In this document: one piece after another, positions 778 through 36,468 of the stretch
How positions within the stretch are numbered: the first letter of the stretch is position 1
Layout: each line of letters opens with the position of its first letter
Assembly: GCA_017347445.1 (NCBI GenBank)
Contig: AP021856.1
Coordinates: forward strand, 2,736,613-2,800,612
Source: Candidatus Brocadia pituitae
GTDB taxonomy: Bacteria > Planctomycetota > Brocadiia > Brocadiales > Brocadiaceae
DNA length: 64,000 nt
Reading direction: 5' to 3'
Notes under the pieces: model-generated
Seen by the model: only the letters and a program-made list of their open reading frames with translations
What the model was told of the DNA's origin: nothing
The model's database searches: none
Made by a program: the position numbers and the translations under genes

Positions 778-1542
778 TTAACAAACGTTCAACGATATCT
801 TATTCATCTTTGCCCGAAGCAAGAATAACGCCTTGTGATGAAGTTGAGATATTCTTGATTCCGAGATACCCATTATCTCACTGATTTCTCTTAACATAAG
901 ATCCTCAAAATAATACAAGCTAATTACCAGTCGTTCTTTTTTAGGAAGCTCTGCAATGGCATTTGCCAATAGTGCTTTCTCTTCTTTTGATTCTAAATCC
1001 CGTAACGGGTCGTGTGACTTAGGATCTTTAATTTCCTGGCATCTATTTCCCTCTTTATTATTATCTGATTTTTGGTAATACTCTTCCAAAGATAAAAACG
1101 TGCCCAGGCTAATTCCCGCCAATAATTTTTCCCATTCTGCAGGATTCATTTTAAGCTCAGCAGCGATCTCTTCCGACCTTGGAGGTCTGTTTAATTTCTG
1201 CTCTAACGATATGTATGTCTCCCTCACCATTGTTGCTTTGTCCCGCATGGAACGAGGCAACCAATCCTGGGAACGTAAATGGTCTAAAATTGCGCCTCGT
1301 ATACGGGAGATAGCATACGTTCCAAACTTTGTATTATTCTTTGCATCATATTTTTCTGCTGCTTCCATAAGACCAAGAATACCGTATTCTATAAGATCTT
1401 CTTTATCAACAAACGAAGGTAAATAAACCATGATTTTACCTACCACATACTTAACCAAAGAAATATTTTCCGTGATCAGTTTATCACGTTTCATTAAACT
1501 TGCATCCATATAACCTGATTTACTTTTATTTACCGCGCTCAT
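778..1542 (-). CDS. fliA: RNA polymerase sigma factor FliA/WhiG (sigma-28)
   Basis: This 254-residue protein has the standard FliA layout: region 2 in the first 100 residues (VDKEDLIEYGILGLMEAAEKY, then RIRGAILDHLRSQDWLPRS, typical of the sigma-28 group), region 3 around 105-170 and region 4 with a helix-turn-helix at about 205-250 (LREISEIMGISESRISQLH). It directs RNA polymerase to late flagellar genes and is held back by the anti-sigma factor FlgM, whose gene lies at 30412-30738. The start at 1542 is preceded by two purine-rich AAGGA stretches. It sits downstream of flhG and a small membrane-protein gene, an order common in flagellar clusters. Confidence 0.96.
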   Translation of the reverse strand: MSAVNKSKSGYMDASLMKRDKLITENISLVKYVVGKIMVYLPSFVDKEDLIEYGILGLMEAAEKYDAKNNTKFGTYAISRIRGAILDHLRSQDWLPRSMRDKATMVRETYISLEQKLNRPPRSEEIAAELKMNPAEWEKLLAGISLGTFLSLEEYYQKSDNNKEGNRCQEIKDPKSHDPLRDLESKEEKALLANAIAELPKKERLVISLYYFEDLMLREISEIMGISESRISQLHHKALFLLRAKMNKISLNVC

Positions 1543-18358: not shown

Positions 18359-19753
18359 TCACTTGACACAGGAAATTGTTTCCCGTTGATGCGAACATCT
18401 GTCCGCTGCATCGTATTTGTTAAGCTTATTTCGCAACGTCCGTGTTGTAATTTTAAGTAACTCAGCAGCACGAGTCTTATTCCCGTTCGTTTTTTCTAAT
18501 GTACTATAAATCAAGTCTCTTTCAACATCCTCAATAGCTTTTCCATCGGTTAATAAGCCTTCTGATTTCTTCGTGTCGTGATGGATAAAAAGATCATTAA
18601 ATTGCTCTAATTGAAGTCCATTGGGGAAGTTCATAACCACGGCTCTTTGAATAACATTTTTTAATTCTCTCACATTTCCAGGCCAATGGTATTGACATAA
18701 ATAATCCATGGTCTCTGTATCCATTGATTTTGCAATTGTGTTATTTTCGAGACTATATTTTTTAAGATAATAGTTTACAAGCAGCGGTATATCCTCTCGT
18801 CTTTCACGTAAAGGCGGCAAACAGATGGGAACAACATTCAGTCTATAATAAAGGTCTTCACGAAATGTACCCTTTTGAATTTCTTCAACCAAATCCCTGT
18901 TTGTTGTTGCCACAATCCTCACATCGATCTTTATCGTTTTTTCTCCGCCTACTCGCTCAAACTCTTCCTCTTCAAGTACCCTGAGTAATTTTGCTTGTAT
19001 ATTTGGTGATATCTCGCTAATCTCATCAAGCAATAAGGTGCCTTCATTTGCCAGTTCAAAACGTCCAACGTGCTTTGAAATTGCCCCAGTATAGGCACCA
19101 CGTTCATGTCCAAACAGTTCGCTTTCAAGAAGTGTTTCAGTCAAAGCAGCGCAATTAACCCGAATGAAGGGCCTTTCGTATCTGTGACTATGAAAGTGTA
19201 TTGCACGTGCAACAAGTTCTTTCCCAGTGCCACTTTCCCCTTGAACAAGAACACTCGCCTTGCTTTGCGCAATCTTTTTAATCTGTTCGTATATTTGAAA
19301 CATTTTAGAATTTTTAGTAAAAACAGAGTTCATCTTTTCATCTATATTCGAATTAGACCTCCAATATTTGTTTTCCACAATCAATTGTTGCCGCTCGTTA
19401 ATCCTTGCTATTACAAGTTCTACCTGGTCGGGTGAGAATGGTTTGATTATATAATCATATGCACCTTTTTTCATAGCTTCTACAGCAGTCTCTATTGTTC
19501 CATATGCGGTCATAAGAACAACAACTGTCTCGGGAGAAATAGTCTTTATCTTTTCAAGGACCTCCATACCACATATTCCCGGCATTTTCATATCCAAAAA
19601 GACGAGATCATATCCATCTTTACTAACACTGGCAAGCGCCTGCAATCCATCACAAGCCGATGTCACTTCATAGCCATTTCTTGTTAAAGTTTCTGATAAA
19701 TATTCACGACCTAAAAGGTCATCATCTACTACTAACACCTTTTCTACGCTCAT
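18359..19753 (-). CDS. Sigma-54-dependent response regulator, FlrC/FleR-like
   Basis: This 464-residue protein has a receiver domain with the phosphorylatable Asp54 (F-L-D-M-K-M-P), an AAA+ domain with Walker A G-E-S-G-T-G-K-E near 165 and the sigma-54-contact motif written GAYTGA, and a Fis-type helix-turn-helix at the end (NKTRAAELLKITTRTLRNKL). It should oligomerise on phosphorylation and drive open-complex formation at sigma-54 promoters. It lies 68 bases downstream of a PAS histidine kinase and just before flgB-flgC-fliE, as FlrBC and FleSR pairs do, so control of class III basal-body genes is likely. Confidence 0.9.
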   Translation of the reverse strand: MSVEKVLVVDDDLLGREYLSETLTRNGYEVTSACDGLQALASVSKDGYDLVFLDMKMPGICGMEVLEKIKTISPETVVVLMTAYGTIETAVEAMKKGAYDYIIKPFSPDQVELVIARINERQQLIVENKYWRSNSNIDEKMNSVFTKNSKMFQIYEQIKKIAQSKASVLVQGESGTGKELVARAIHFHSHRYERPFIRVNCAALTETLLESELFGHERGAYTGAISKHVGRFELANEGTLLLDEISEISPNIQAKLLRVLEEEEFERVGGEKTIKIDVRIVATTNRDLVEEIQKGTFREDLYYRLNVVPICLPPLRERREDIPLLVNYYLKKYSLENNTIAKSMDTETMDYLCQYHWPGNVRELKNVIQRAVVMNFPNGLQLEQFNDLFIHHDTKKSEGLLTDGKAIEDVERDLIYSTLEKTNGNKTRAAELLKITTRTLRNKLNKYDAADRCSHQRETISCVK

Positions 19754-19821: not shown

Positions 19822-21144
19822 TTATAAATACTGTGATATCAAATATTCACTATTTTTCCAGGTGCTGCTAAAGGTATCTATTTCATAATGACCATGAATT
19901 GGTAAATGAACATAAAAGACGGTCCCCTTATTCTCTTGACTTTCAACAGAAATCTTACCTCTGTGGGCATCAACAATCTTATTCACCATTGCTAAACCCA
20001 AACCAGTTCCTTCTTGTTTTGTAGTAAAAAAAGGGTCAAATATCTTATGAATGTCTTCTTTTTTTATACCAATCCCCGTATCTCTTATTCCGACTTGGAT
20101 ACCTTCAAAACCTTTGCCCATACATGAGCGTGCAGATACTATTAAATCACCCCCAGAAGGCATAGCTTGAATTGCATTTAAGCAAAGATTTAAAAAAGCC
20201 TGTTGTAATCTATCAGGATCGCACGTTAAACCATCCATACCACAACCGTATTCTTTTCGAATATTGACATTCTGAACACCCTTTTGTTTAATATCCTCTG
20301 TCACAAAGAAAAGCGTTTTATCTAATATCTCGGAAATCCTACTTTTTTTTAAATTCATTCTCAGCGGACGAGCAAATACAAGCAGTTCAGTTATTGTTTT
20401 ATTTAGATTCTTCGCACCATGTATTATATTGTTTACTAATTTTTTTCTTGGATCTAAATCATCAAAGTCTCGCAAAAGCAAAGCAGAAAACCCCTCTATT
20501 CCATTGAGAGGATTTCGAATTTCATGGGCGATAGATGCAGCCATAGCACCAATTGTCGCTAATTTATCGGCACTTCTCAGTCGCTTCTCCAACTCTCTAA
20601 TTTCAGACAAATCTCTAAATACCTCCACAGCACCTATCGTATTTTCATTTGCATCTTTAATCAATGAAGCACTACTTTCAATCCATTTTTCAACTCCTTG
20701 ATTTGTCACGATTTTCCGTTCTACGTCTATATAGTCTTTTTTCTTTTTAAGAGCCAATAACAACAACGAAATAGTTCCGTCACTGTTTTTAAAAATCTCC
20801 TCTACCTTTTTTCCCATTAAATCTGACAGAGTTAATTTTAATATTGCTACGGCTGCTTTGTTAAGGGTCGATATTTCCCCTTGTAAATTTACAGCTATAA
20901 CTCCACTATGAATACTGCTTAAGAGGTTGTTTAAATATTTTGTTAAACTATCAAGCTCTTGTACTTTTTCCTTTAAACGTGCGTTTGCCAGCGCCATTTC
21001 CTTATCAATCTCTTTAACCCTGTTTTGAAGTTGATTATAAGATTCTTCCAGCCGTTGTGTGTACTGATTAAATACGTGGAAGGCTGAGGCAAGTTCATAA
21101 TCCCACTTCATTGATACTGGATTTAAAGATGTATTTTCAATCAT
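19822..21144 (-). CDS. PAS-domain histidine kinase, FlrB/FleS-like
   Basis: A 440-residue soluble kinase: coiled coil (about 25-70), one PAS domain (about 70-185), HisKA dimerisation domain with the phospho-acceptor His207 in S-I-A-H-E-I-R-N-P-L, and HATPase_c with an N box (LNLCLNAIQAM) and D-T-G-I-G-I near 350. There are no membrane helices, which agrees with FlrB/FleS kinases that sense basal-body assembly inside the cell. The neighbouring response regulator is the natural partner. Confidence 0.88.
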   Translation of the reverse strand: MIENTSLNPVSMKWDYELASAFHVFNQYTQRLEESYNQLQNRVKEIDKEMALANARLKEKVQELDSLTKYLNNLLSSIHSGVIAVNLQGEISTLNKAAVAILKLTLSDLMGKKVEEIFKNSDGTISLLLLALKKKKDYIDVERKIVTNQGVEKWIESSASLIKDANENTIGAVEVFRDLSEIRELEKRLRSADKLATIGAMAASIAHEIRNPLNGIEGFSALLLRDFDDLDPRKKLVNNIIHGAKNLNKTITELLVFARPLRMNLKKSRISEILDKTLFFVTEDIKQKGVQNVNIRKEYGCGMDGLTCDPDRLQQAFLNLCLNAIQAMPSGGDLIVSARSCMGKGFEGIQVGIRDTGIGIKKEDIHKIFDPFFTTKQEGTGLGLAMVNKIVDAHRGKISVESQENKGTVFYVHLPIHGHYEIDTFSSTWKNSEYLISQYL

Positions 21145-22566: not shown

Positions 22567-24333
22567 TTAATTGGTATTTTTGTCATTATCCAAACCTTGT
22601 CTATATGCTTTGATTGCTTCTTCCAAGTTTCCCAAGTGTTTATGACACTCTCCTATACGATTAAACAGATAGGGTTTTATCTGATCATTGTTAGCTATTT
22701 TCAGCAATTCATAATACTTATCAATTGCTTCTGCATATTTTTTACCATGAAAAAGCGAATCAGCTTTTCCAACCATACCTTCAACTATAAACTCATCATC
22801 AGGATACTCTTTTATAAAATTATCGAATGCCTTATATGATAGCAAATAGTCTTCCTTATCAAAATAACATCTCCCTATCTCTAATGCCATTTTCGCAGCA
22901 CAAATATCTGCAGGATATGATTGCATTCCATCATAAAACACTTTTATTGCAGACTTGGCCATTTTCATTGCCATTAGGCATTTTCCTATATAGTACATTC
23001 CATAAGGTATCTTATTGCTCTTAGGATAGTTCTCGATTGTTTTCCTAAATACTTGAAACGCACCCAAATAATCATTTTGTTTGTATAAACATTCACCAAG
23101 CAAAAAACTTGCGTTTTCAGCAAATTCTAAGCTCTGACCACTCGCCAAATAATTTACAAATACATTCCCGGCATCCTGATATTCATTTAATGAATACAGA
23201 CAGTTGCCAATATGATATTCGATTGCCAATCTCGTTTGCTCTGAAAAATGTTTCCATCTTACCTTTAAGAACATAGGTATTGCAGTCCGATAATCACCCA
23301 TTTGCATATAAGTTTTTGCCATTCGGAATTGGGCATCGATGACAGCACGAGATTCATTTTCAGGATGTTCACGAATAATCTTTTTATAGATATCTATTGC
23401 TTTATGGTAGAAACCTTGTTCCGCCAATGAGTCACCAATTGATTGAAGCGCTTCACTAACCAATGGATCTTTTGGATAATTACAAATAAATTGGAAGTAA
23501 GCTCGACGCGCACTTTCCAAATCTTTTAGCTTGTTGTAGCAACGGCCTATTTTGAATAACGCCTCTTTTGCCTCCGAGCTATCTCGATATTTTCCCACAA
23601 CAATCTGATATTCTTGCAGCGCAAGAAAATAAAAACCAAGTTCAAAATAATAATTCCCTATCTCAAAATAGGCCTTTACGATCCTCCGGTCGTTAGGGTA
23701 TTTTATCTTGGCTTTTTGATACAATTGAATACTCTTGTCTCTATAATACTCGAAAGGTGTATCAAGCTTGAGTTTTGCCACAGAAGTGATAAATATAGCA
23801 TTCTCATCCTGGATGAATTCCAAGCCTTGCAGTCCCAAAACAATTTCTATAATATCTTGTAAGGGACTTTTTTTAACTGAAATGTTTGTGTAAGAGGCTA
23901 AATAGGCAGGATCTATTTCATCATCAACAAGGATGCTCTTACCAAGAAATGCAGACAATGCTTGTAATACATCTCCTATTTTTGCATGAGTTGCTTCGAG
24001 TGTGTATAAAGGGATATCATACTCGTCTATTTCTTTTGTAATCTCTATGTTATCATTTGGATTAATCACAATCGATTGACTGTTATCGCCTTTACCATTG
24101 ATTCTCGCACGAGTTCGAAAGTCCTTACTACGCCCAGGTTTTTCATTCTCTTTATTTGTCTCAAGAATTTGTAATTGAGTTCTAAGTTTTTCCAAATTAT
24201 GCTTTTCCATAGTTAGCTTCTCTTGCATATTATACAAACTGTTCTCAACTTGCCCTCCTTGCACGTTAGAATAATTTTGTATCAAAAAAACACAAATAAA
24301 TAAAGGCGCTTTAAACAATACCCTTCTCTTCAT
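22567..24333 (-). CDS. Secreted STN-domain protein with TPR array
   Basis: Starting at ATG 24333 (a TTG 15 bases earlier is also possible), the protein has 588 residues: a signal peptide (about 1-25), a coiled coil (about 35-60), a STN-like fold at about 105-190 (G-D-V-L-Q-A-L-S-A-F-L-G-K-S-I-L-V-D-D, then SPLQDIIEIVLGLQGLEFI) and about ten TPR units from 200 to the end. STN domains occur at the N-terminus of secretins and TonB receptors. No secretin or barrel follows, so this looks like a periplasmic scaffold. Next gene upstream is 47-62 bases away and also encodes a TPR protein. Function not recognised. Confidence 0.72.
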   Translation of the reverse strand: MKRRVLFKAPLFICVFLIQNYSNVQGGQVENSLYNMQEKLTMEKHNLEKLRTQLQILETNKENEKPGRSKDFRTRARINGKGDNSQSIVINPNDNIEITKEIDEYDIPLYTLEATHAKIGDVLQALSAFLGKSILVDDEIDPAYLASYTNISVKKSPLQDIIEIVLGLQGLEFIQDENAIFITSVAKLKLDTPFEYYRDKSIQLYQKAKIKYPNDRRIVKAYFEIGNYYFELGFYFLALQEYQIVVGKYRDSSEAKEALFKIGRCYNKLKDLESARRAYFQFICNYPKDPLVSEALQSIGDSLAEQGFYHKAIDIYKKIIREHPENESRAVIDAQFRMAKTYMQMGDYRTAIPMFLKVRWKHFSEQTRLAIEYHIGNCLYSLNEYQDAGNVFVNYLASGQSLEFAENASFLLGECLYKQNDYLGAFQVFRKTIENYPKSNKIPYGMYYIGKCLMAMKMAKSAIKVFYDGMQSYPADICAAKMALEIGRCYFDKEDYLLSYKAFDNFIKEYPDDEFIVEGMVGKADSLFHGKKYAEAIDKYYELLKIANNDQIKPYLFNRIGECHKHLGNLEEAIKAYRQGLDNDKNTN

Positions 24334-24395
24334 TTTGCTTATAAACAAAATATGAATACGAGCTTAAATTACAAGCCATATTTTGATGGAAACAA

Positions 24396-25268
24396 CTACT
24401 GATTGGTACTAGACGTTCCAACCGTGATTCTTTTAAGAAATCGCATTGCCTCTTCCATGTAATAATCTGCTATTTTAAAATATGAGTCTGTAACGATCAA
24501 TTCCTCGTCTTCAGAAGAGCATTTTCCTTCTTGTGCTAAAATAGCGTAAAGTGATCTCCGCGCCTTTTTATATTCACCAACTCTTGCATAACATTCACCT
24601 AGTTTCAGTCGACTTTTGAATTGATATGGACTATTTATATAATCGCTTGTTAAAGCATGAAATACTTTTAATGCATCTCCATATCGCTTGGATAATAAAT
24701 AACAATCTCCTAAACGATACATAATAAAATCCTCATTTAAAAAGGACATCGAATTGTCTAAACCTTCTTCATAAAAAACCGCTGCCTTTTCATAGCGACC
24801 TTGTTCGTAAAATCGATTTGCTTCTATTATATATCTTGAACTATCAATATGAGCTTCATTTAGGCTATTCAAAGAAGTTAAAGCACCCGTATCCTTATTG
24901 TTATTTACAGAAGATCCGGCTCTTTCATTTTCCCTGGAACCATCGATAATGGTATTATCTAAAGATATATTCTTCTTCATACTCTCTATTGCCTTTTCTT
25001 CTACAATACGTCCAATGTCTTTTTTTCCATAATTCGTCCAATACTTTTGTATTACAAACAAAAAACAAACTATACCTAATATAAATATGTTAATAGCAAT
25101 CGAAAGTCCATATCGCCGGAGTACTAAGGTAATTCGGGAAACTTCAGGAGATGAATTAGCATTTTTTCCATTTTCTGATTTCTTATTTGTATCAACCAAT
25201 ACCCCAGCAGACTGTTGGTGAATTTCCATTGTGCTGGGGGATTCATCTTGTTGAATAGAATCCGACAT
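24396..25268 (-). CDS. Membrane-anchored TPR protein
   Basis: I place the start at ATG 25268 (290 residues); the frame extends to a TTG at 25349 but would then overlap the STAS gene by 50 bases. A polar 50-residue cytoplasmic segment is followed by one membrane helix (about 53-76) and a presumably periplasmic part with three or four TPR units from 140 on (ANRFYEQGRYEKAAVFYEEG, then FIMYRLGDCYLLSKRYGDAL). Single-pass topology could link the cytoplasmic STAS/RsbW-like pair next door to the periplasmic TPR proteins, but that is inference from gene order. Confidence 0.7.
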   Translation of the reverse strand: MSDSIQQDESPSTMEIHQQSAGVLVDTNKKSENGKNANSSPEVSRITLVLRRYGLSIAINIFILGIVCFLFVIQKYWTNYGKKDIGRIVEEKAIESMKKNISLDNTIIDGSRENERAGSSVNNNKDTGALTSLNSLNEAHIDSSRYIIEANRFYEQGRYEKAAVFYEEGLDNSMSFLNEDFIMYRLGDCYLLSKRYGDALKVFHALTSDYINSPYQFKSRLKLGECYARVGEYKKARRSLYAILAQEGKCSSEDEELIVTDSYFKIADYYMEEAMRFLKRITVGTSSTNQ

Positions 25269-25299
25269 CCTTTTCTTTACCAGAAAACCATTAAGATAT

Positions 25300-25686
25300 T
25301 TAAAAAATACACTCTTTGGACCACAAAAGGTTTTTCTCAAGTTTACCAACCTGAGGACCGATGCTTGCTAGAACTGCATCTTCATTTTCAAATATTGAAA
25401 TAATTTTATTAACACCGGTAATATCAAACAACTCTATTATATTTTCATTCACATTAACAAGTTTCAAGTCTCTTCGCTGATCTCTGTAATATTTTACGTT
25501 ATCTACTATCATACTTATTGCCTTTGCAGAGAGATATTTTGTATAAGCAAGGTTAATTATGATACAACGAACTTCGCTTCTCAACTCTTTTAAAAGAGTT
25601 GAGAGTTCTTCTATTCCTTCATATACTAAATTGCCTTTCGGTAATACCATAACAGTCTTTTCATTTTCTTGTTTTTCAATTTTCAT
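25300..25686 (-). CDS. STAS-domain anti-sigma-factor antagonist-like protein
   Basis: A 128-residue single STAS domain protein (pattern I-I-I-N-L-A-Y-T-K-Y-L-S-A-K-A-I at 42-57). In SpoIIAA/RsbV the matching stretch is F-M-D-S-S-G and the Ser after Asp is phosphorylated by the partner kinase; here that position is Ala54 (Y51-L52-S53-A54-K55-A56). So the switch serine seems to be lost, unless Ser53 stands in for it. The gene overlaps the RsbW-like fusion gene by 11 bases, so the two products are made together. Confidence 0.85.
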   Translation of the reverse strand: MKIEKQENEKTVMVLPKGNLVYEGIEELSTLLKELRSEVRCIIINLAYTKYLSAKAISMIVDNVKYYRDQRRDLKLVNVNENIIELFDITGVNKIISIFENEDAVLASIGPQVGKLEKNLLWSKECIF

Positions 25687-27217
25687 TACAAGTTACTCGC
25701 TTTGCCATGTGAACAGTCGTCCCCGTTTTTTCTGAGGACTGTATCATTACCCTATCCATTAAATGTTTCATAAGCAATATACCTCTGCCTTTTTTTTCTG
25801 TTAACTCTGTATAAATTGTCATATCAGGCTCTCGATAACTCTTGGTGTCAAAACCACAACCATGGTCACAAACCTCAGTAATAATTTCGTTCCCCAATTT
25901 AATAAATCTAATAAAGACTTCGCCGTATTTATTTTTATTATATGCAAAAGTTACTGCATTCAAAATAGCCTCATTGACAGAAGTGATAATTTGATGTCTC
26001 TTGATATTATCCACTACCACAGAAGATAAGATCTTTTCAAATTGGTCTAAAATCTTTTCATAATTGCCGATAGGTATTGCGAGAGAAATCGTTTCCTCCC
26101 AATAAGAGGTATTTATTTCATATCCAAGCTCCGAAACCATTACAGAAATATCATTTTCCTTGTCAATGAACTCTTCACATCTTTCTATTTGAAGTTTAAC
26201 TTCTTTTGCTATCTCTTCACAGGTGCCAAAATTTCCATCAGTCATCACATTTTTTAACTTATCAATATAAAAGGTATGTGTTCCATTTTTCATAACTGTT
26301 GATAACAAACTGCCCATTACGAGAACTATTTTTCTGCCAGATACATCGGAAACTGTTTCTTCCAAAATCATTGTACCGGGAAACATATTTAACGAAAAAG
26401 GGTGTGATTCCAATACCACAGTTTCTTTATGAGGCATGTATAAAATACTCGCCAGTTCCTCTCCATACCCGGAATAGCAAAGCATTTGCCTTTGTGTATC
26501 TAATACAGCACAAAACACGTTAATTGGAAAACGTTGTAAAAGATTTTTACAAAAATATTGATTAATATTTTTCAACAAAGAAGCAGGAGATTTATCCACC
26601 TCTGTTATATAGCTATAACGGAAAATTGCTTTAACCACCCTATCTAAATTATCTAAACTAACCTTATTTGAAACACCAACGAACAGAAATGCACTTAATT
26701 TACCCAACGTAATACAATCATAAAAGATATGATTCATAGATTTTCCAGAATTCTTTGCAAGAAAACATGTTTTTGACTGATTCCATCTATTATTATACTC
26801 GACTTTAAGCCCTTCACTATTTTTACCATCAACAATATCACTATCAATCATGAAAGAATCATTTAAAATTTTATGGATAACAGCCTTTATATGTTCTATC
26901 TTAAATGGTTTTGTCATAAAATCTGATACACCAATATGCATAGCTTCTATTACTGTCTCTATTGAACCATAAGCTGTGATAATAACAGATTTGACATTTG
27001 GGCGTATCTTTTTTATTTCGGAAATCAATTGTATTCCACCCATTGTAGGCATTCTTAAATCACTAATCACCAAATCATAACTGATCTTCTTGGCAAACTC
27101 TAATGCCTTAACACCATCACTAATATTCTCAACTTCATAACCTTCTTCTGTCAAAGCTTCGTGCAATGCCCACCGTAGTGTTTCCTCATCATCCACTAAT
27201 AAAATCTTTTTTTTCAT
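25676..27217 (-). CDS. Response regulator fused to a PP2C/SpoIIE-like domain and an RsbW-like kinase
   Basis: A 513-residue fusion. Residues 1-120 are a receiver domain with Asp53. Residues of about 140-365 look like a SpoIIE/PP2C phosphatase fold (SPASLLKNINQYF, then VFCAVLDTQRQMLCYSGYG and a final NDISVMV), but the metal-binding Asp residues of the usual G-D-v-s-G-H-G and G-G-D-f-y-D motifs appear replaced. Residues 375-510 are a GHKL ATPase of the RsbW type with an N box (VNEAILNAVTFAY), D-H-G-C-G-F-D and G-R-G-I-L-L-M. Such proteins normally release sigma factors or other partners through a STAS protein, here encoded next. Confidence 0.82.
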   Translation of the reverse strand: MKKKILLVDDEETLRWALHEALTEEGYEVENISDGVKALEFAKKISYDLVISDLRMPTMGGIQLISEIKKIRPNVKSVIITAYGSIETVIEAMHIGVSDFMTKPFKIEHIKAVIHKILNDSFMIDSDIVDGKNSEGLKVEYNNRWNQSKTCFLAKNSGKSMNHIFYDCITLGKLSAFLFVGVSNKVSLDNLDRVVKAIFRYSYITEVDKSPASLLKNINQYFCKNLLQRFPINVFCAVLDTQRQMLCYSGYGEELASILYMPHKETVVLESHPFSLNMFPGTMILEETVSDVSGRKIVLVMGSLLSTVMKNGTHTFYIDKLKNVMTDGNFGTCEEIAKEVKLQIERCEEFIDKENDISVMVSELGYEINTSYWEETISLAIPIGNYEKILDQFEKILSSVVVDNIKRHQIITSVNEAILNAVTFAYNKNKYGEVFIRFIKLGNEIITEVCDHGCGFDTKSYREPDMTIYTELTEKKGRGILLMKHLMDRVMIQSSEKTGTTVHMAKRVTCNEN

Positions 27218-27312: not shown

Positions 27313-28722
27313 TTATGATGGGCAAAGACCGTATTCTTTTATTTTATTATATAATGTTGTTCTATTAATACCCAATATCTTCGCAGCCTCGGTTCTCCGC
27401 CAAGAAGTCTCATTAAGAACTTTCTGAATATGTTGTCTTTCAATATTAGCCAAAGAACGAATGTCTAAAGTTTCATTATTCTCCCCGTCATAGTTCTTGT
27501 CATTGGTAACATTAGCATTTACAATACCTCCTTTTCTCGAATCAATAGAAACACCGATTTCCGGGCTCAGTACGCCGTTACCAGCAATTAAAACAGCGCG
27601 CTCGACTACATTTTTCAACTCACGAATGTTTCCAGGCCATTTGTATTCCAAAAGCATTTTCTCTGTTTCTGCAGGTATGTGATGAACATTTTTGTTAAAT
27701 TCATTATTATATTTATGCACAAAATGTTTCACCAAAAGCATAATATCGTCTTTTCTTTCCCTCAACGGCGGTATATAAATGGGTAAAACCTTTAATCTAT
27801 AATAAAGATCTTTTCTAAAATTATCGGATTCTACTTCTTCTTCCAAGTTTCGGTTTGTTGATGCAATAACCCTGACATCAATCTTAATGTCATTAATTCC
27901 CCCAACCCTTTTAAATTGCCGTTCTTGTAAAATTCTCAAAAGTTTCGCCTGTAAAGTAATACCCATTTCACCTATTTCATCTAAAAAGATAGTACCTTTA
28001 TCCGCAACTTCAAACAAACCAGGCTTCCCTGTTGTAATTGCACCCGTAAACGAGCCTTTTTCATAACCAAATAATTCTGCCTCAAGAAGACTCTCTGTTA
28101 AAGCTGCGCAATTTATATCTACAAAACGACCATTTTTCCTTGAACTTAAATGATGAACAGCCCGCGCTACAAGCTCCTTGCCAGTCCCACTTTCTCCTTG
28201 TATTAATACCGTTGTTGATGGACTCTTTGCTACCTGTTTTATAAGGTTATAAATTGCTTTCATCTGGTAACTATTTCCTATAATTACAGAACCAGGCTCA
28301 TCAGCAAAAGTACACTGCTGTGCCCGCAATTCAAGAACTTCTCTTCTTAATGCCTGAGTACTCAACGCCTTTTCAACAACTAGCTTTAAATGCTCCGTTT
28401 TAAAAGGCTTTTCCAAATAGTCATAAGCCCCAGATTTCATTGCCTCCACTGCAGAGTCAACGCTCCCATATCCAGTCATAACAATAATTAAAGCATTAGG
28501 ATCTTTTGTTTTTACTTTTTCCAGAAGCTCTATTCCACCCATGTTAGGCAATCGCAAATCCAATAACACTAAGTCTGGTAAAAATTCGTTTATCTTCTCC
28601 AGTGCCTGCTCACTAGTTTCTGCAACAATAACATCATACCCTAATCCAGATAAAAACTCTTTTATCGAAAAACGAATCGTTTCCTCATCGTCCACAATAA
28701 GAATTATTGCCTTAGACGACAT
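27313..28722 (-). CDS. Sigma-54-dependent response regulator (NtrC family), second copy
   Basis: A 469-residue protein: receiver with Asp55 (LLDLRLP), AAA+ domain with Walker A G-E-S-G-T-G-K-E, the sigma-54 loop written GSFTGA, and a Fis-type helix-turn-helix (EAAKILGINRTTLYNKI) at the end. A strong AAGGGGG precedes ATG 28722. It is similar in plan to the regulator at 18359 but clearly a different gene. The adjoining receiver-RsbW fusion and TPR genes suggest it belongs to that group; a 10-bp palindrome upstream could be its own operator. Confidence 0.9.
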   Translation of the reverse strand: MSSKAIILIVDDEETIRFSIKEFLSGLGYDVIVAETSEQALEKINEFLPDLVLLDLRLPNMGGIELLEKVKTKDPNALIIVMTGYGSVDSAVEAMKSGAYDYLEKPFKTEHLKLVVEKALSTQALRREVLELRAQQCTFADEPGSVIIGNSYQMKAIYNLIKQVAKSPSTTVLIQGESGTGKELVARAVHHLSSRKNGRFVDINCAALTESLLEAELFGYEKGSFTGAITTGKPGLFEVADKGTIFLDEIGEMGITLQAKLLRILQERQFKRVGGINDIKIDVRVIASTNRNLEEEVESDNFRKDLYYRLKVLPIYIPPLRERKDDIMLLVKHFVHKYNNEFNKNVHHIPAETEKMLLEYKWPGNIRELKNVVERAVLIAGNGVLSPEIGVSIDSRKGGIVNANVTNDKNYDGENNETLDIRSLANIERQHIQKVLNETSWRRTEAAKILGINRTTLYNKIKEYGLCPS

Positions 28723-30411: not shown

Positions 30412-30738
30412 TTACTTCCTATTACCAAAAAGATCCATAATCTTTTCCGCTGTCTGCAAAATCACTTCAGGTCTGTCATAATAACCTTCTTTTATTTTTT
30501 GTTTAATCTCCACCATTTTTTCATGCCTCACATCAGGCATCTCGTTTGCGAGTTTTTTTAGTTCTGTAATCGTCTGTCCTAGTTTTTTTGCTTCTGCGGA
30601 AATATCGACAGAATCGGCTTTTTCATCTTCAGGTTGATCTTCTTTATTAATCTTTATTCGCAATTGATTTTCCTCAACATAATTTGAATTAACTTCTCTG
30701 GTGTGTAAGGAAGTATTAGAAACATCTTTTATAGTCAT
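30412..30738 (-). CDS. flgM: Anti-sigma-28 factor FlgM
   Basis: A 108-residue protein with a disordered, polar N-terminal half and the FlgM core in the C-terminal half (V-D-I-S-A-E-A-K-K-L, RHEKMVEIKQKIKEGYY, AEKIMDLFG). FlgM holds FliA inactive until the hook is complete, then leaves the cell through the export gate. The perfect AGGAGG lies 6 bases before ATG 30738; an ATG at 30744 directly abuts it and is too close. A sigma-28 promoter 106 bases upstream would let FliA drive its own inhibitor, as in Salmonella. Confidence 0.92.
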   Translation of the reverse strand: MTIKDVSNTSLHTREVNSNYVEENQLRIKINKEDQPEDEKADSVDISAEAKKLGQTITELKKLANEMPDVRHEKMVEIKQKIKEGYYDRPEVILQTAEKIMDLFGNRK

Positions 30739-30843
30739 TGTCATCCTCCTAAAAAAATCAATGCAACCTTGATAGTGCCTATACTCATGTAAAAATAAAC
30801 ATCCAGAAACACTATCCTACGATGTATTATTAGACACTTTTAT

Positions 30844-31602: not shown

Positions 31603-32287
31603 ATGACCACTTGCAAACGTATAAGCGATACATCGAAGATATCCCGCTGGTTGACCCTGTCGTGACGGAACATACGGTTCATGGATACTGGTGTTTTTCT
31701 TGCAAAAAGATCGTTCAACCCCTGGATACAAATGCCTTGCCAATCGCCCGACTCGGATTGCACCTTGTTGTCTTTACCAACGGTGTTTCTATCATCTGTT
31801 CACAGAACTCATGAAAGTAGGCACACACAACCAGTTTATCTCATGGAAAAGGTTCGGGAGAAAACTCTCCCGGTTGCTCAAAGATGCCACCGGCTATCCG
31901 GGAAAAAGACCCACCTTAGCCAGGCATGCTTTCTTAGGCTCAAAAAAAGATTGTATCGCAGACTTAAACAGTTTCTGGGAACACCCACTCAGGAAAAAGA
32001 CGCACAAAGATTGACCAAGCACCTGAACCGTTATAAACAGGCACTTTTCACGTTTCTGGAACATGAGGGCGTATGTCCCTATAATAACCATGCTGAGCAA
32101 CAGATGCGAAAAACGGTATTGACCCGAAAAGCCTTACAGCAGAGCTGCTCTGAGGACGGCGCTAAGACACCAGACATCCTCATGTCTCTTCTTCGCTCTG
32201 CGGAATTACAGGGAATTAATCCCGTAGAAAACCTTCTGGCAAGCACAAAAAACGCTCTTACGGTTAAAACGTCTTCTGGGTTAGCTT
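31603..32287 (+). pseudogene. IS66-like transposase, frameshifted and truncated
   Basis: Pieces in different frames read as an IS66-type transposase: a zinc-finger-like stretch (H-G-Y-W-C-F-S-C-K-K-I-V-Q-P) at 31600-31790, then KLSRLLKDA near 31860, and in a third piece KHLNRYKQALFTFLEHEGV with N-N-H-A-E-Q-Q-M-R-K-T-V-L-T-R-K near 32080-32130, the conserved C-terminal motif of IS66 proteins. Most of the central catalytic region is missing. The frame is cut at 32287 by the IS4-type element; its last codons are found at 33618-33641. Confidence 0.75.
32279..32287 (+). repeat. Target-site duplication of the IS4-type element, left copy
   Basis: GGTTAGCTT directly precedes the left inverted repeat and recurs at 33616-33624 straight after the right one. 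A preceding G at 32278 matches 33615, so the duplication is 9 or 10 bases. Confidence 0.85.
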
Positions 32288-33615
32288 CACTACTGTCCGG
32301 ATGTTTAAATAAATATCTGTTGTAAATACTATGATTCAAGAGAGATACAAGCAAAAAAGGTCGTAATCGATTTGAAATTCAACGTATACTATAGCCATTC
32401 TATTCTTCATAACAAACAGAAAGGAATGGCTCATGAATATAGGAAAAACTGTTTTCGCACAAGTAATCGATTTTTTACCCATGCATGAATTTCGCAAATG
32501 TGTTCAGCGTTACGAAGGCAATCACAAAGTAAAAAGCTTTTCATGCTTTGATCAATTTCTCTGTATGGCATTTGCTCAATTAACCTACAGAGAAAGCCTC
32601 CGGGATATTGAAGCCTGCCTGCGCTCGATGCAAGAGAAACTCTACCATATGGGAATTCGTGGTAAGGTTTCTCGCAGTACTCTAGCGGATGCAAATGAGA
32701 ACAGAGACTGGCATATTTATGCTGATTTTGCTCAAGTATTGATTCATAGAGCAAGAGACCTCTACAGTAATGATGAATTTTGTATAGACCTTGATCAGAC
32801 CGTTTATGCCCTGGATTCCACAACGATTGACTTATGCCTTTCCCTTTTTCCTTGGGCAAAATTTAGAAAGTATAAAGGAGCTATAAAACTGCATACTCTC
32901 ATGGATTTGCGCGGCAGCATTCCTTCGTTTATCAAAATTACCGACGGTAAGGTTCATGATATAAACGTTCTTGACGACCTTATTCCAGAGCCTGGTTCTT
33001 TCTACGTAATGGATCGTGGGTATCTCGACTTTGCACGGTTGTATAACCTCACCTTGTGCTTGGCATTCTTTGTTATTCGTTCTAAAACAAATCTCAAATT
33101 TCGGAGAATCTACTCACACCCGATTGATAAATCTCTTGGCCTGATATGCGATCAAACCATAGTTCTTTCAAATGCTGACTCAGCGAAAGATTATCCGGAA
33201 AAGTTACGACGAGTGGGCTATTACGATGCTGAAAATCAAAAAAATCTTACTTTCCTGACAAACAACTTTTCCCTTCCCGCCATTACCATTGCTCTTATTT
33301 ATAAATCTCGCTGGCAGATTGAATTATTTTTCAAGTGGATAAAACAACACTTGAGAATAAAAGCATTTTACGGTACTTCTGAAAACTCGGTAAAAACTCA
33401 AATATGGATTGCAATCTCCGTTTACGTGCTTGTTGCAATCATCAAAAAGCGCCTCAATTTAGACATGAGTCTCTACACAATTTTACAAATTTTGAGTATT
33501 ACCCTATTTGAGAAAGTCCCTATTTTGCAAGTACTTACAAATTCTGATTACAAAAGCGAACCGCGCGTTCTTTATAAACAATTGTCTTTGTTAAACTTAT
33601 AACCGGACACTAGTG
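32288..33615 (+). mobile_element. Intact IS4-type insertion sequence
   Basis: A 1.33-kb element with 13-bp terminal inverted repeats that differ at one position (CACTACTGTCCGG at 32288-32300; CACTAGTGTCCGG inverted at 33603-33615) and a target duplication of 9-10 bases (GGTTAGCTT, 33616-33624). It carries one complete transposase gene. Its target was the 3' end of the older IS66-like transposase frame. Intact gene and clean duplication indicate a fairly recent insertion. Confidence 0.9.
32433..33602 (+). CDS. IS4-family transposase
   Basis: A 389-residue protein with an N-terminal segment typical of one IS4 branch (SFSCFDQFLCMAFAQLTYRESLRDIE) and the DDE catalytic core: Asp in A-L-D-S-T, Asp in V-M-D-R-G-Y and Glu in the YREK-type motif Y-K-S-R-W-Q-I-E-L-F-F-K-W-I-K. 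All three acidic residues are present and the frame is unbroken, so it is probably active. AAGGA lies 7 bases before ATG 32433. I think it belongs to the ISPepr1-like group, from memory of the N-terminal motif. Confidence 0.93.
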   Translation: MNIGKTVFAQVIDFLPMHEFRKCVQRYEGNHKVKSFSCFDQFLCMAFAQLTYRESLRDIEACLRSMQEKLYHMGIRGKVSRSTLADANENRDWHIYADFAQVLIHRARDLYSNDEFCIDLDQTVYALDSTTIDLCLSLFPWAKFRKYKGAIKLHTLMDLRGSIPSFIKITDGKVHDINVLDDLIPEPGSFYVMDRGYLDFARLYNLTLCLAFFVIRSKTNLKFRRIYSHPIDKSLGLICDQTIVLSNADSAKDYPEKLRRVGYYDAENQKNLTFLTNNFSLPAITIALIYKSRWQIELFFKWIKQHLRIKAFYGTSENSVKTQIWIAISVYVLVAIIKKRLNLDMSLYTILQILSITLFEKVPILQVLTNSDYKSEPRVLYKQLSLLNL

Positions 33616-33773: not shown

Positions 33774-36272
33774 TCACACTTCAATCAAGCTCACCCTTTT
33801 TGCTGCGATACCAATCTTTTCTATGAAGGTGTTAAAGCGAAACGGCTTCGTAATCACAGGCACTTTACTCTTATCAACAAACGTCCTATATTCGGACGAA
33901 AGGGTGTCTCCTGTCATCAAAATTACCTTTCCCCTGATAACAGGTGAATAACTTACCATCCACTCATAGAATTGAATTCCAGACATTTCTCCAGGCATTT
34001 TAAAGTCCATAACAACGATATCAAACTGATCTTCTTGGATGGCCTGCATCGCATCTTTAATATTGTTTGCGGACGTTACGTGGCAACCTTTTGCAGTCAA
34101 CAATTCATTACAAGATTCTGCAATTCCCACCTCATCTTCTACGAGCAATAAACGTAAACCACTCAAATCATAGTCCTTTTTGATAGGGAATTTGACTTCT
34201 TTGCCAGTTTGCACTTTGATCGGGAGAGCGACAGTAAAAATAGCACCTTTCTGACTGTTCTTTCCAACAATCCCCCCCCCATGTTCCTTTATAATGCCAT
34301 AGCTTACCGCCAAACCTAACCCCGTTCCCTTCCCAACCTCTTTCGTTGTGTAAAAAGGGGTAAACAACTTTTCCGGCTCAAGGATACCAGGCCCAGTATC
34401 CTCAAATTCAATTACAATTTTATCCCCTTTTTGGTGAGTACGAATGGTCAAAATGCCCTTTCCATATGCAACCTTCATTGCATCATAAGCGTTATTAATA
34501 AGATTGATAAAGACTTGCATGAGTTGAACGCGATCAGCCATTGTCTTTGGCAAAGCCTGAGAAAGAAATTGTTCTACCTCGATATTATTGACTCTGAGAT
34601 CATTAATTTTTAGTTCAAGAGCATCTTTCAGAACGTCATTGATACAAACGTATTGTCCCTTTCGAACGTCTTTCCGTTTCGTTGCAAAAGTGAGCAGATT
34701 TTCTACAATCCGGGTACAGCGTTGGGAAGCATCGATAATATGTCGTAATCGGTTTGTTGCATTTTTTGATAGATTATCACATATCAACATAAGTTCACTA
34801 AAATTCAAAATAATAGATAATGGATTATTCAGTTCATGGGCAACCCCAGAAATCATAGTTCCCACGCTGCTCATCTTTTCAGCCTGAATAAGTTGTTCTT
34901 TTAGCATCTTTTGCTCAGTAATATCGTAACCAAATAAATTTATATTCAAAATAGCATTCCATTCATCTCTCAGATACGTTACAATCCATAAGATTTCCCG
35001 AATCTGATAATCGCGTGAAGCAAATGGTATTTCAATCTGTTCCCCTTTCTTTCCGCTCAAGAGCATCTGGATGTCATCAAATAGCTCTTCTACTTTATCT
35101 TGCGGAATAAAAACATCAACCACAGGTTTACCAAACACTTCGGACAGCGTAAAACCAAATCTCTTTTCTATTGCACGATTTACAAACACAATCTCACCTT
35201 TCGAAGTAATCGTGACGACATAAACATTGGTGTTTTGTATCAGTGCATCAAGAAATTTTCTTTGATTATACATTTCCTTTTCTGTTTCAGTTAACTTCTG
35301 TGATTTCTCTTTTAATAAACCCTTCAAACGCTCCTGATATTCAAATATTCTTTTTTCCAATACCCTTCTTTCAGTTACATCACGAACAAATGCCATTACT
35401 ATATAGTCATTTAAAATCATATCATACTGTATGGAACACATGATTTCTGCATCTATCCGTTTACCTCCCTTCATCAACAATGTCACAACCAAATTGTTAT
35501 CTATCCTTGAGTTAACGGAGGAATCATATTGTTTCTTAATAACAGGCCCATTTTCATCAGCAACCAGATCAAACAGATACAAGGAGGTCATTTCGTTTGC
35601 TCTATATCCAAAGGCCTCTAATCCCAATTTGTTTATGTGAAGAAACCTTCCTTGACTATTCAGTTTAAAAATTATCTCAGGCGCATTCTCAACCATGTCC
35701 TTGTATTTCTCCTCTGAGGCAGTAAGACTATCTAACAGCATAACATTCATTAAGGTAACAGTAATTTGTGCTGAAACCTGATCGATAAGGCTACTATGGG
35801 TTTCTATAAAATGAGTGCAATTTTTACTGAGAATATTTATACATCCAATTAACGCATTGTTAATAAATAGCGGATATACCATGAATGAGGTAATACTATT
35901 ACTCAGCAGAAGCTTATCGATATCATTTCCACTTTTATCCAATCCATTCCTCATGATGATTTTGTTTGACTTTGTCACTTCATTATAGAGAATCTTTTCC
36001 AAGATTGTTTTCAGTTCAGTACCTCTGTAAAAGTTTTTGGTGTTTTGTTCCAAATTCAACAAATACGTATAGTATTCACCTGAAGGTTGCGTCTTTAATA
36101 TTACACTAAAATAATCAAAGTTTATGATCTTTTTCAGTTCAAGGCATAAGGCGTTACAAAAATCTCTGTAATTCAAACGAGAAAGCACTAAACGGTTTAT
36201 ATTGAGGATAGTTTCCCGTTCCAACTCCAATCTTTTTATCATACAATCTTTATCAATTTTTTGCGGCACCAT
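33774..36272 (-). CDS. Hybrid histidine kinase (GAF-PAS-PAS-HisKA-HATPase-REC)
   Basis: From ATG 36272 (AAGG 8 bases upstream; an in-frame GTG lies at 36281) the protein has 832 residues without membrane segments: GAF-like domain about 45-180, two PAS domains about 185-300 and 340-460, HisKA with the phospho-acceptor His in G-V-A-H-E-L-N-N-P-L, HATPase_c (INNAYDAM, DTGPGI, GTGLGLAVSYGI) and a C-terminal receiver with Asp in V-M-D-F-K-M-P. The build suggests sensing of a soluble signal and a phosphorelay. It stands alone, with no response-regulator or phosphotransfer gene beside it, so its target is unknown. Confidence 0.9.
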   Translation of the reverse strand: MVPQKIDKDCMIKRLELERETILNINRLVLSRLNYRDFCNALCLELKKIINFDYFSVILKTQPSGEYYTYLLNLEQNTKNFYRGTELKTILEKILYNEVTKSNKIIMRNGLDKSGNDIDKLLLSNSITSFMVYPLFINNALIGCINILSKNCTHFIETHSSLIDQVSAQITVTLMNVMLLDSLTASEEKYKDMVENAPEIIFKLNSQGRFLHINKLGLEAFGYRANEMTSLYLFDLVADENGPVIKKQYDSSVNSRIDNNLVVTLLMKGGKRIDAEIMCSIQYDMILNDYIVMAFVRDVTERRVLEKRIFEYQERLKGLLKEKSQKLTETEKEMYNQRKFLDALIQNTNVYVVTITSKGEIVFVNRAIEKRFGFTLSEVFGKPVVDVFIPQDKVEELFDDIQMLLSGKKGEQIEIPFASRDYQIREILWIVTYLRDEWNAILNINLFGYDITEQKMLKEQLIQAEKMSSVGTMISGVAHELNNPLSIILNFSELMLICDNLSKNATNRLRHIIDASQRCTRIVENLLTFATKRKDVRKGQYVCINDVLKDALELKINDLRVNNIEVEQFLSQALPKTMADRVQLMQVFINLINNAYDAMKVAYGKGILTIRTHQKGDKIVIEFEDTGPGILEPEKLFTPFYTTKEVGKGTGLGLAVSYGIIKEHGGGIVGKNSQKGAIFTVALPIKVQTGKEVKFPIKKDYDLSGLRLLLVEDEVGIAESCNELLTAKGCHVTSANNIKDAMQAIQEDQFDIVVMDFKMPGEMSGIQFYEWMVSYSPVIRGKVILMTGDTLSSEYRTFVDKSKVPVITKPFRFNTFIEKIGIAAKRVSLIEV

Positions 36273-36468
36273 ATCTACCACCTTTTTTAGCTTTTCTAAA
36301 CAGAAGGTAAGGGTTGTAGTTACCGATACGATCTCTACTAATTTTTATACATCTACTTAATTTTATTTTCAATCAAAATATATTATCCCTTATCTTTCCA
36401 GTACAACAAACTCAATTCGGCAAGACTGAGGCATTCTAACCGTATCTATTACACCAAATTAAAATACC

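Follow-up and report, generated by a model that had tools for sequence, protein, structure and literature searches.

Candidatus Brocadia pituitae, an anammox bacterium of the Planctomycetota, carries, within its flagellar gene region, two adjoining genes that may encode a phospho-dead HsbR/HsbA-type partner switch, driven by receiver phosphorylation and/or by the nucleotide state; we give this reading a probability of about one in two. It is supported, in sequences and models, by an intact receiver, a PP2C fold predicted to be metal-free, retained ATP boxes, a STAS protein in which the switch serine is replaced by alanine, and the strict linkage of the two genes. The pair was found in the window, a 64,000-nt stretch of the single 4.08-Mb contig that makes up the source genome; the features of the locus are collected in Table 1. 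The open reading frame (ORF) of the 513-aa protein overlaps the downstream ORF of the 128-aa STAS protein by 11 nt.

Table 1. Features of the partner-switch locus and its surroundings (window coordinates).
Feature	Position	Strand	Evidence
REC-pseudo-PP2C-GHKL protein, 513 aa	25676..27217	-	ORF, Pfam; full-length orthologues in 17 Brocadiaceae genomes and G335
Receiver domain, aa 5-114	26876..27205	-	Pfam PF00072 (Response_reg) 7.1e-29
Degenerate SpoIIE/RsbU-type PP2C domain, about aa 148-363	26129..26776	-	Fold model; motifs GGD, DxSGxG and TDG lost
RsbW/SpoIIAB-type GHKL ATPase domain, aa 387-506	25700..26059	-	PF13581 (HATPase_c_2) 6.3e-17; SpoIIAB/RsbW alignment
STAS protein, 128 aa	25300..25686	-	PF01740 7.4e-12; SpoIIAA/RsbV profile matches; model against SpoIIAA Z 16.8
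Codons of Ser53 and Ala54 of the STAS protein	25525..25530 (Ala54 = 25525-25527)	-	Profile alignment
Conserved STAS C-terminal tail GPQVGKLEKxLLWSKE, about aa 108-124	25315..25365	-	Family alignment; also in G335
Sigma-54 activator (REC-AAA-Fis), conserved neighbour immediately upstream of the pair	27313..28722	-	Domain search and synteny
TPR protein with a hydrophobic segment, conserved neighbour immediately downstream of the STAS gene	24396..25349	-	Domain search and synteny
FlgM (anti-sigma-28), conserved neighbour	30412..30744	-	PF04316 2.9e-8 and synteny
FliA (sigma-28), candidate end target	778..1542	-	TIGR02479 E 1.2e-74, G000:C1:2737417-2738091 = window 805-1479
Histidine kinase, candidate upstream kinase, conserved neighbour	19822-21144	-	Domain search and synteny
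Sigma-54 activator, cognate-looking to the adjoining histidine kinase, conserved neighbour	18359-19753	-	Domain search and synteny

An earlier note on the same DNA had read the larger protein as a receiver followed by a SpoIIE/PP2C-like fold and an RsbW-type GHKL ATPase, and Pfam and the fold model agree with this architecture. In the family alignment, all five signature residues of the receiver (the phosphoacceptor Asp53 together with D9, D10, T81 and K103) are invariant, and alignment with SpoIIAB and RsbW shows that the N-box residues E416 and N420, DxGxGF and GRG of the GHKL domain are kept in all members, invariance being judged in both cases among proteins that are 44-72% identical to the one in the window. 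The constancy of E416 and N420 suggests that ATP chemistry is still under selection, which would be odd if phosphorylation were absent. The N-box His of RsbW-type kinases, found after the N-box in 27 of the 34 surveyed RsbW-type relatives that have a residue there, is replaced by Phe (Phe424) in every family member, and the kinase competence of the domain is therefore uncertain.

The middle domain matches the SpoIIE family of Pfam at 5e-5, slightly short of the family cut-off. Profile-profile comparison with the intact PP2C domains of the phylum gave probabilities of 97-98%; a profile search of the PDB sequences returned nothing at E 1, so that a fold model was needed. The model (mean pLDDT 74) matches the RsbU-RsbW protein Rv1364c (3ke6, Z 16.8), SpoIIE (5ucg, Z 16.2) and P. 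aeruginosa RssB (3f79, E 4.6e-10); these matches make the PP2C fold clear. When aligned against five intact comparators, the domain lacks the Asp of GGD and the Asp of DxSGxG in all 22 rows and the Asp of TDG in 20 of them, two rows keeping it, and the final DD motif is mostly broken in Brocadiaceae. The suspected loss of the metal-binding aspartates is thus real, two of them being gone in every member. A tree of PP2C domains places the degenerate ones in one order-wide clade (support 100/99), within which the branching order of Brocadiaceae, G335 (a genome from a different family of Brocadiales) and the sister family described below is not resolved. The complete genome holds no further SpoIIE, RsbW-type or STAS domain above cut-off besides the pair; a second SpoIIE phosphatase acting in trans was considered and rejected on the SpoIIE-type search.

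For the smaller protein, a profile built from 13 family members was aligned with SpoIIAA (1tid, 1th8 and 1auz; E down to 1.6e-11) and with RsbV. The alignment is ungapped around the motif and pairs Ser53 with Asp57, Ala54 with the phosphorylated Ser58 and Lys55 with Ser59 of SpoIIAA. In 1tid, the phospho-Ser position is likewise occupied by Ala; we take this entry to be the S58A mutant of SpoIIAA, an artificial counterpart of the state that is natural in the anammox protein. The assignment of Ala54 to the phospho-site, proposed from the window alone, holds throughout: all 19 genomes that carry the pair, 18 of Brocadiaceae plus G335, have Ala in this column, against Ser in all 29 other STAS domains from the loci surveyed, mostly encoded beside RsbW-type genes and many reading YISSAGAG. 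The family motif is Y[LIV]SA[KNR], with F for Y once, and Ser53 is invariant. That Ser53, the first serine of DSSG, could itself hold the phospho-site position, a condition that the earlier note had named as refuting its reading, was rejected on the profile alignment, which puts it one residue early, at the preceding Asp57 position, and on the phylum relatives with ISS, which keep a second Ser; which of their two serines is the acceptor is assigned by alignment, not by experiment. In the model, helix 2 begins at residue 54 and Ser53 is its cap. The most plausible reading is thus that Ser53 is the original helix cap and that Ala54 has taken the place of the acceptor.

SpoIIAA and RsbV lack the conserved tail with which the STAS protein ends; this tail is predicted, with low confidence, to form a helix at residues 113-122, possibly an extra binding helix. 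As an active-looking comparator, a relative from the same class (L139:7125-8911) encodes an intact PP2C-GHKL protein and, next after it, a STAS protein in which the switch Ser is kept.

The full 513-aa-type protein is present in 17 of 33 Brocadiaceae genomes and the STAS protein in 18 (in the eighteenth, the STAS gene lies at a contig start), in the fixed gene order sigma-54 activator, REC-PP2C-GHKL, STAS and TPR protein. G335 carries the same pair in the same place, with FlgM and flagellar genes syntenic. A conserved pair in such synteny is not a chance association. Flagellin was found in 24 of the 33 Brocadiaceae genomes, and the pair in 18 of the 24 flagellin-positive and none of the nine flagellin-negative ones (Fisher p 1.3e-4, a value that ignores kinship). 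Two of the genomes that have flagellin but not the pair show a single flagellin-type match each; flagellin-bearing G239 has the neighbouring block without the pair; and G153 and G300, flagellin-bearing and of the same genus, yielded neither the pair nor the adjacent sigma-54 activator nor the 593-aa TPR protein. Since some flagellin-bearing relatives lack it, the pair is not essential for flagella. In G299, the STAS reading frame extends over only some 78 codons, which may be an assembly error.

A sister family within the order has, in this slot, a REC-pseudo-PP2C protein of about 380-400 aa, without GHKL domain or STAS partner. That the degenerate PP2C domain is kept there without a STAS protein argues for a role beyond dephosphorylating STAS. 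Immediately before the REC-pseudo-PP2C protein comes one of 160-168 aa that carries an isolated HisKA phosphoacceptor domain (H-K-[VI]-R-N-P-L) with no ATPase domain, and in the Brocadiaceae genome G239 such a small HisKA protein stands alone in the slot. By analogy, an orphan phosphoacceptor beside a REC-PP2C protein may recall HptB-HsbR. Orphan HisKA proteins occur at the switch locus in L171:7423-7917, L172:7812-8312, L173:7419-7922, L174:8296-8787, L175:7802-8281, L177:7567-8067 and L131:10310-10612; the longer ones have an N-terminal repeat that resembles MshEN/T2SSE_N by eye, with no such Pfam match.

Around the pair lie the genes for FliF, FliG, FliH, the flagellar ATPase, FliJ, FliL, FliM, FliO and FliP, as well as two sigma-54 activators, a histidine kinase, four TPR proteins, FlgM and FliA; domain searches thus uphold the placement of the pair in a block of two sigma-54 activators and TPR proteins inside a flagellar region. 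To the earlier note this setting was unfamiliar from described partner switches; it is nonetheless a described one, as HsbR-HsbA-FlgM controls flagellar FliA in Pseudomonas aeruginosa. There, unphosphorylated HsbA binds FlgM and frees FliA, and phosphorylated HsbA binds HsbR and HsbD (PMC6482189; PMC8256260); replacement of HsbA Ser56 by Ala abolishes HsbD binding (PMC5085249). HsbR-HsbA (PA3346-PA3347) shares with our pair the REC-PP2C-GHKL order, the single-domain STAS partner and the flagellar setting with FlgM and FliA, but HsbR is an active phosphatase and HsbA is switched at Ser56, both of which the anammox pair has lost. No HptB-like gene lies beside the pair in Brocadiaceae. CrsR-CrsA of Shewanella oneidensis has the same three-domain order and a STAS antagonist, but runs an active kinase/phosphatase cycle that controls RpoS, to which our pair has no known link. 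In Bacillus, SpoIIE/SpoIIAB/SpoIIAA and RsbU/RsbW/RsbV have homologous PP2C, GHKL and STAS folds in separate proteins, with intact phosphatase and switch Ser, whereas in the anammox pair the PP2C and GHKL domains are fused and both features are lost.

In Escherichia coli RssB, as in the anammox protein, a receiver is joined to a PP2C fold without active-site residues (PMC7226468); RssB and RsbU have linker and switch-helix control in common (PMC12143880). However, RssB has a truncated PP2C domain and no GHKL or STAS part, and delivers sigma-S to ClpXP, whereas the anammox protein has a GHKL domain; only the sister-family homologues, which lack GHKL, match RssB in ending after the PP2C part. 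The anammox pair thus joins the ideas behind HsbR/HsbA and RssB, failing the former's catalytic definition and the latter's domain definition. Both the flagellar REC-PP2C-GHKL/STAS setting (HsbR-HsbA-FlgM) and the REC-pseudo-PP2C arrangement (RssB) are already known; the novelty lies in the loss of both phosphatase and acceptor throughout the order while the switch is retained. A literature search on partner switching in anammox bacteria returned nothing specific.

With the acceptor Ser and the phosphatase site both lost, the classic kinase-phosphatase cycle on this serine should be unable to run, as the earlier note had argued would follow if both losses were real; they are real, and fixed in Brocadiales wherever the pair occurs. 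The STAS protein would then be permanently in the unphosphorylated, binding-competent state: fixed as Ala, it should, by analogy with HsbA, always bind the partner of that state, and the choice of partner would therefore have to come from the receiver or from the nucleotide state. Aspartyl phosphorylation of the receiver could be relayed through the pseudo-PP2C domain as a conformational change, as in RssB, and this relay, the ATP/ADP state of GHKL, or both would decide whether GHKL holds the STAS protein or leaves it to bind elsewhere. As output, the FlgM-FliA branch or the sigma-54 activators nearby, and hence flagellar gene expression, would be most likely; gene position and analogy make FlgM a candidate link. 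The whole chain, that is, a switch without serine phosphorylation in which a locked STAS protein answers to a relay from receiver to pseudophosphatase to GHKL, order-wide and wired to flagellar genes, is put forward tentatively, with the odds somewhat against it. If true, competitive STAS binding, as the requirement of a partner switch, would be separable from serine phosphorylation, its presumed driver, and the pseudophosphatase idea would extend from RssB to complete partner switches. The pair would then be a natural system for receiver control of PP2C/GHKL output once catalysis is gone, and a lead on flagellar gene control in anammox bacteria.

The classic cycle may, on another account, have shifted instead of being abandoned: an active GHKL kinase would phosphorylate Ser53, a different residue or a different protein, with an unrelated phosphatase reversing this. 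The invariant E416, N420, DxGxG and GRG boxes would fit such a cycle, as would the invariance of Ser53; however, the conservation of Ser53 has a structural reason, because this residue occupies the Asp57 position, is already Ser in the phosphorylatable-looking ISS relatives and caps the helix that starts at 54. Moreover, the exchange of the N-box His for Phe extends to all members, and a search of the genome for SpoIIE-type domains found no other such phosphatase; we regard a shifted cycle as unlikely. Equally, we doubt that the protein is an RssB-like adaptor, in which the REC-pseudo-PP2C part is the effector that binds FlgM, FliA or a sigma-54 activator and sequesters it or delivers it to a protease, GHKL and STAS being regulatory add-ons. 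Such an adaptor would share the REC-PP2C architecture without active-site residues of RssB and would suit the sister family, whose REC-pseudo-PP2C protein lacks GHKL and STAS at the same locus, beside an orphan HisKA protein, but in Brocadiaceae the GHKL-STAS half always accompanies REC-pseudo-PP2C and is conserved, and no protease link was seen.

Domain order, STAS partner and flagellar setting would also suit a plain HsbR/HsbA orthologue with working phosphatase and switch Ser, the losses being alignment errors; this we consider hardly credible, given that independent profile alignments, and comparison with intact domains, agree on where the lost residues lie. Decay towards a functionless remnant, which the several lost catalytic residues and the absence of the pair from some flagellin-bearing relatives might suggest, is very improbable in view of the open frames, the fixed synteny and the many residues invariant across the order.

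A scan of the 64-kb window for sigma-54 and sigma-28 promoter consensus gave matches not clearly above those in shuffled sequence. Between FlgM and a hybrid kinase gene (33774-36281), the window has two plus-strand ORFs that look transposase-like by eye (31681-33602); in the relatives L040-L042, the genes for FlgM and the hybrid kinase are about 0.4-1.4 kb apart. A further TPR protein kept in the block (22567-24348) has a weak GspD N0-like domain near its N-terminus (E 0.004).
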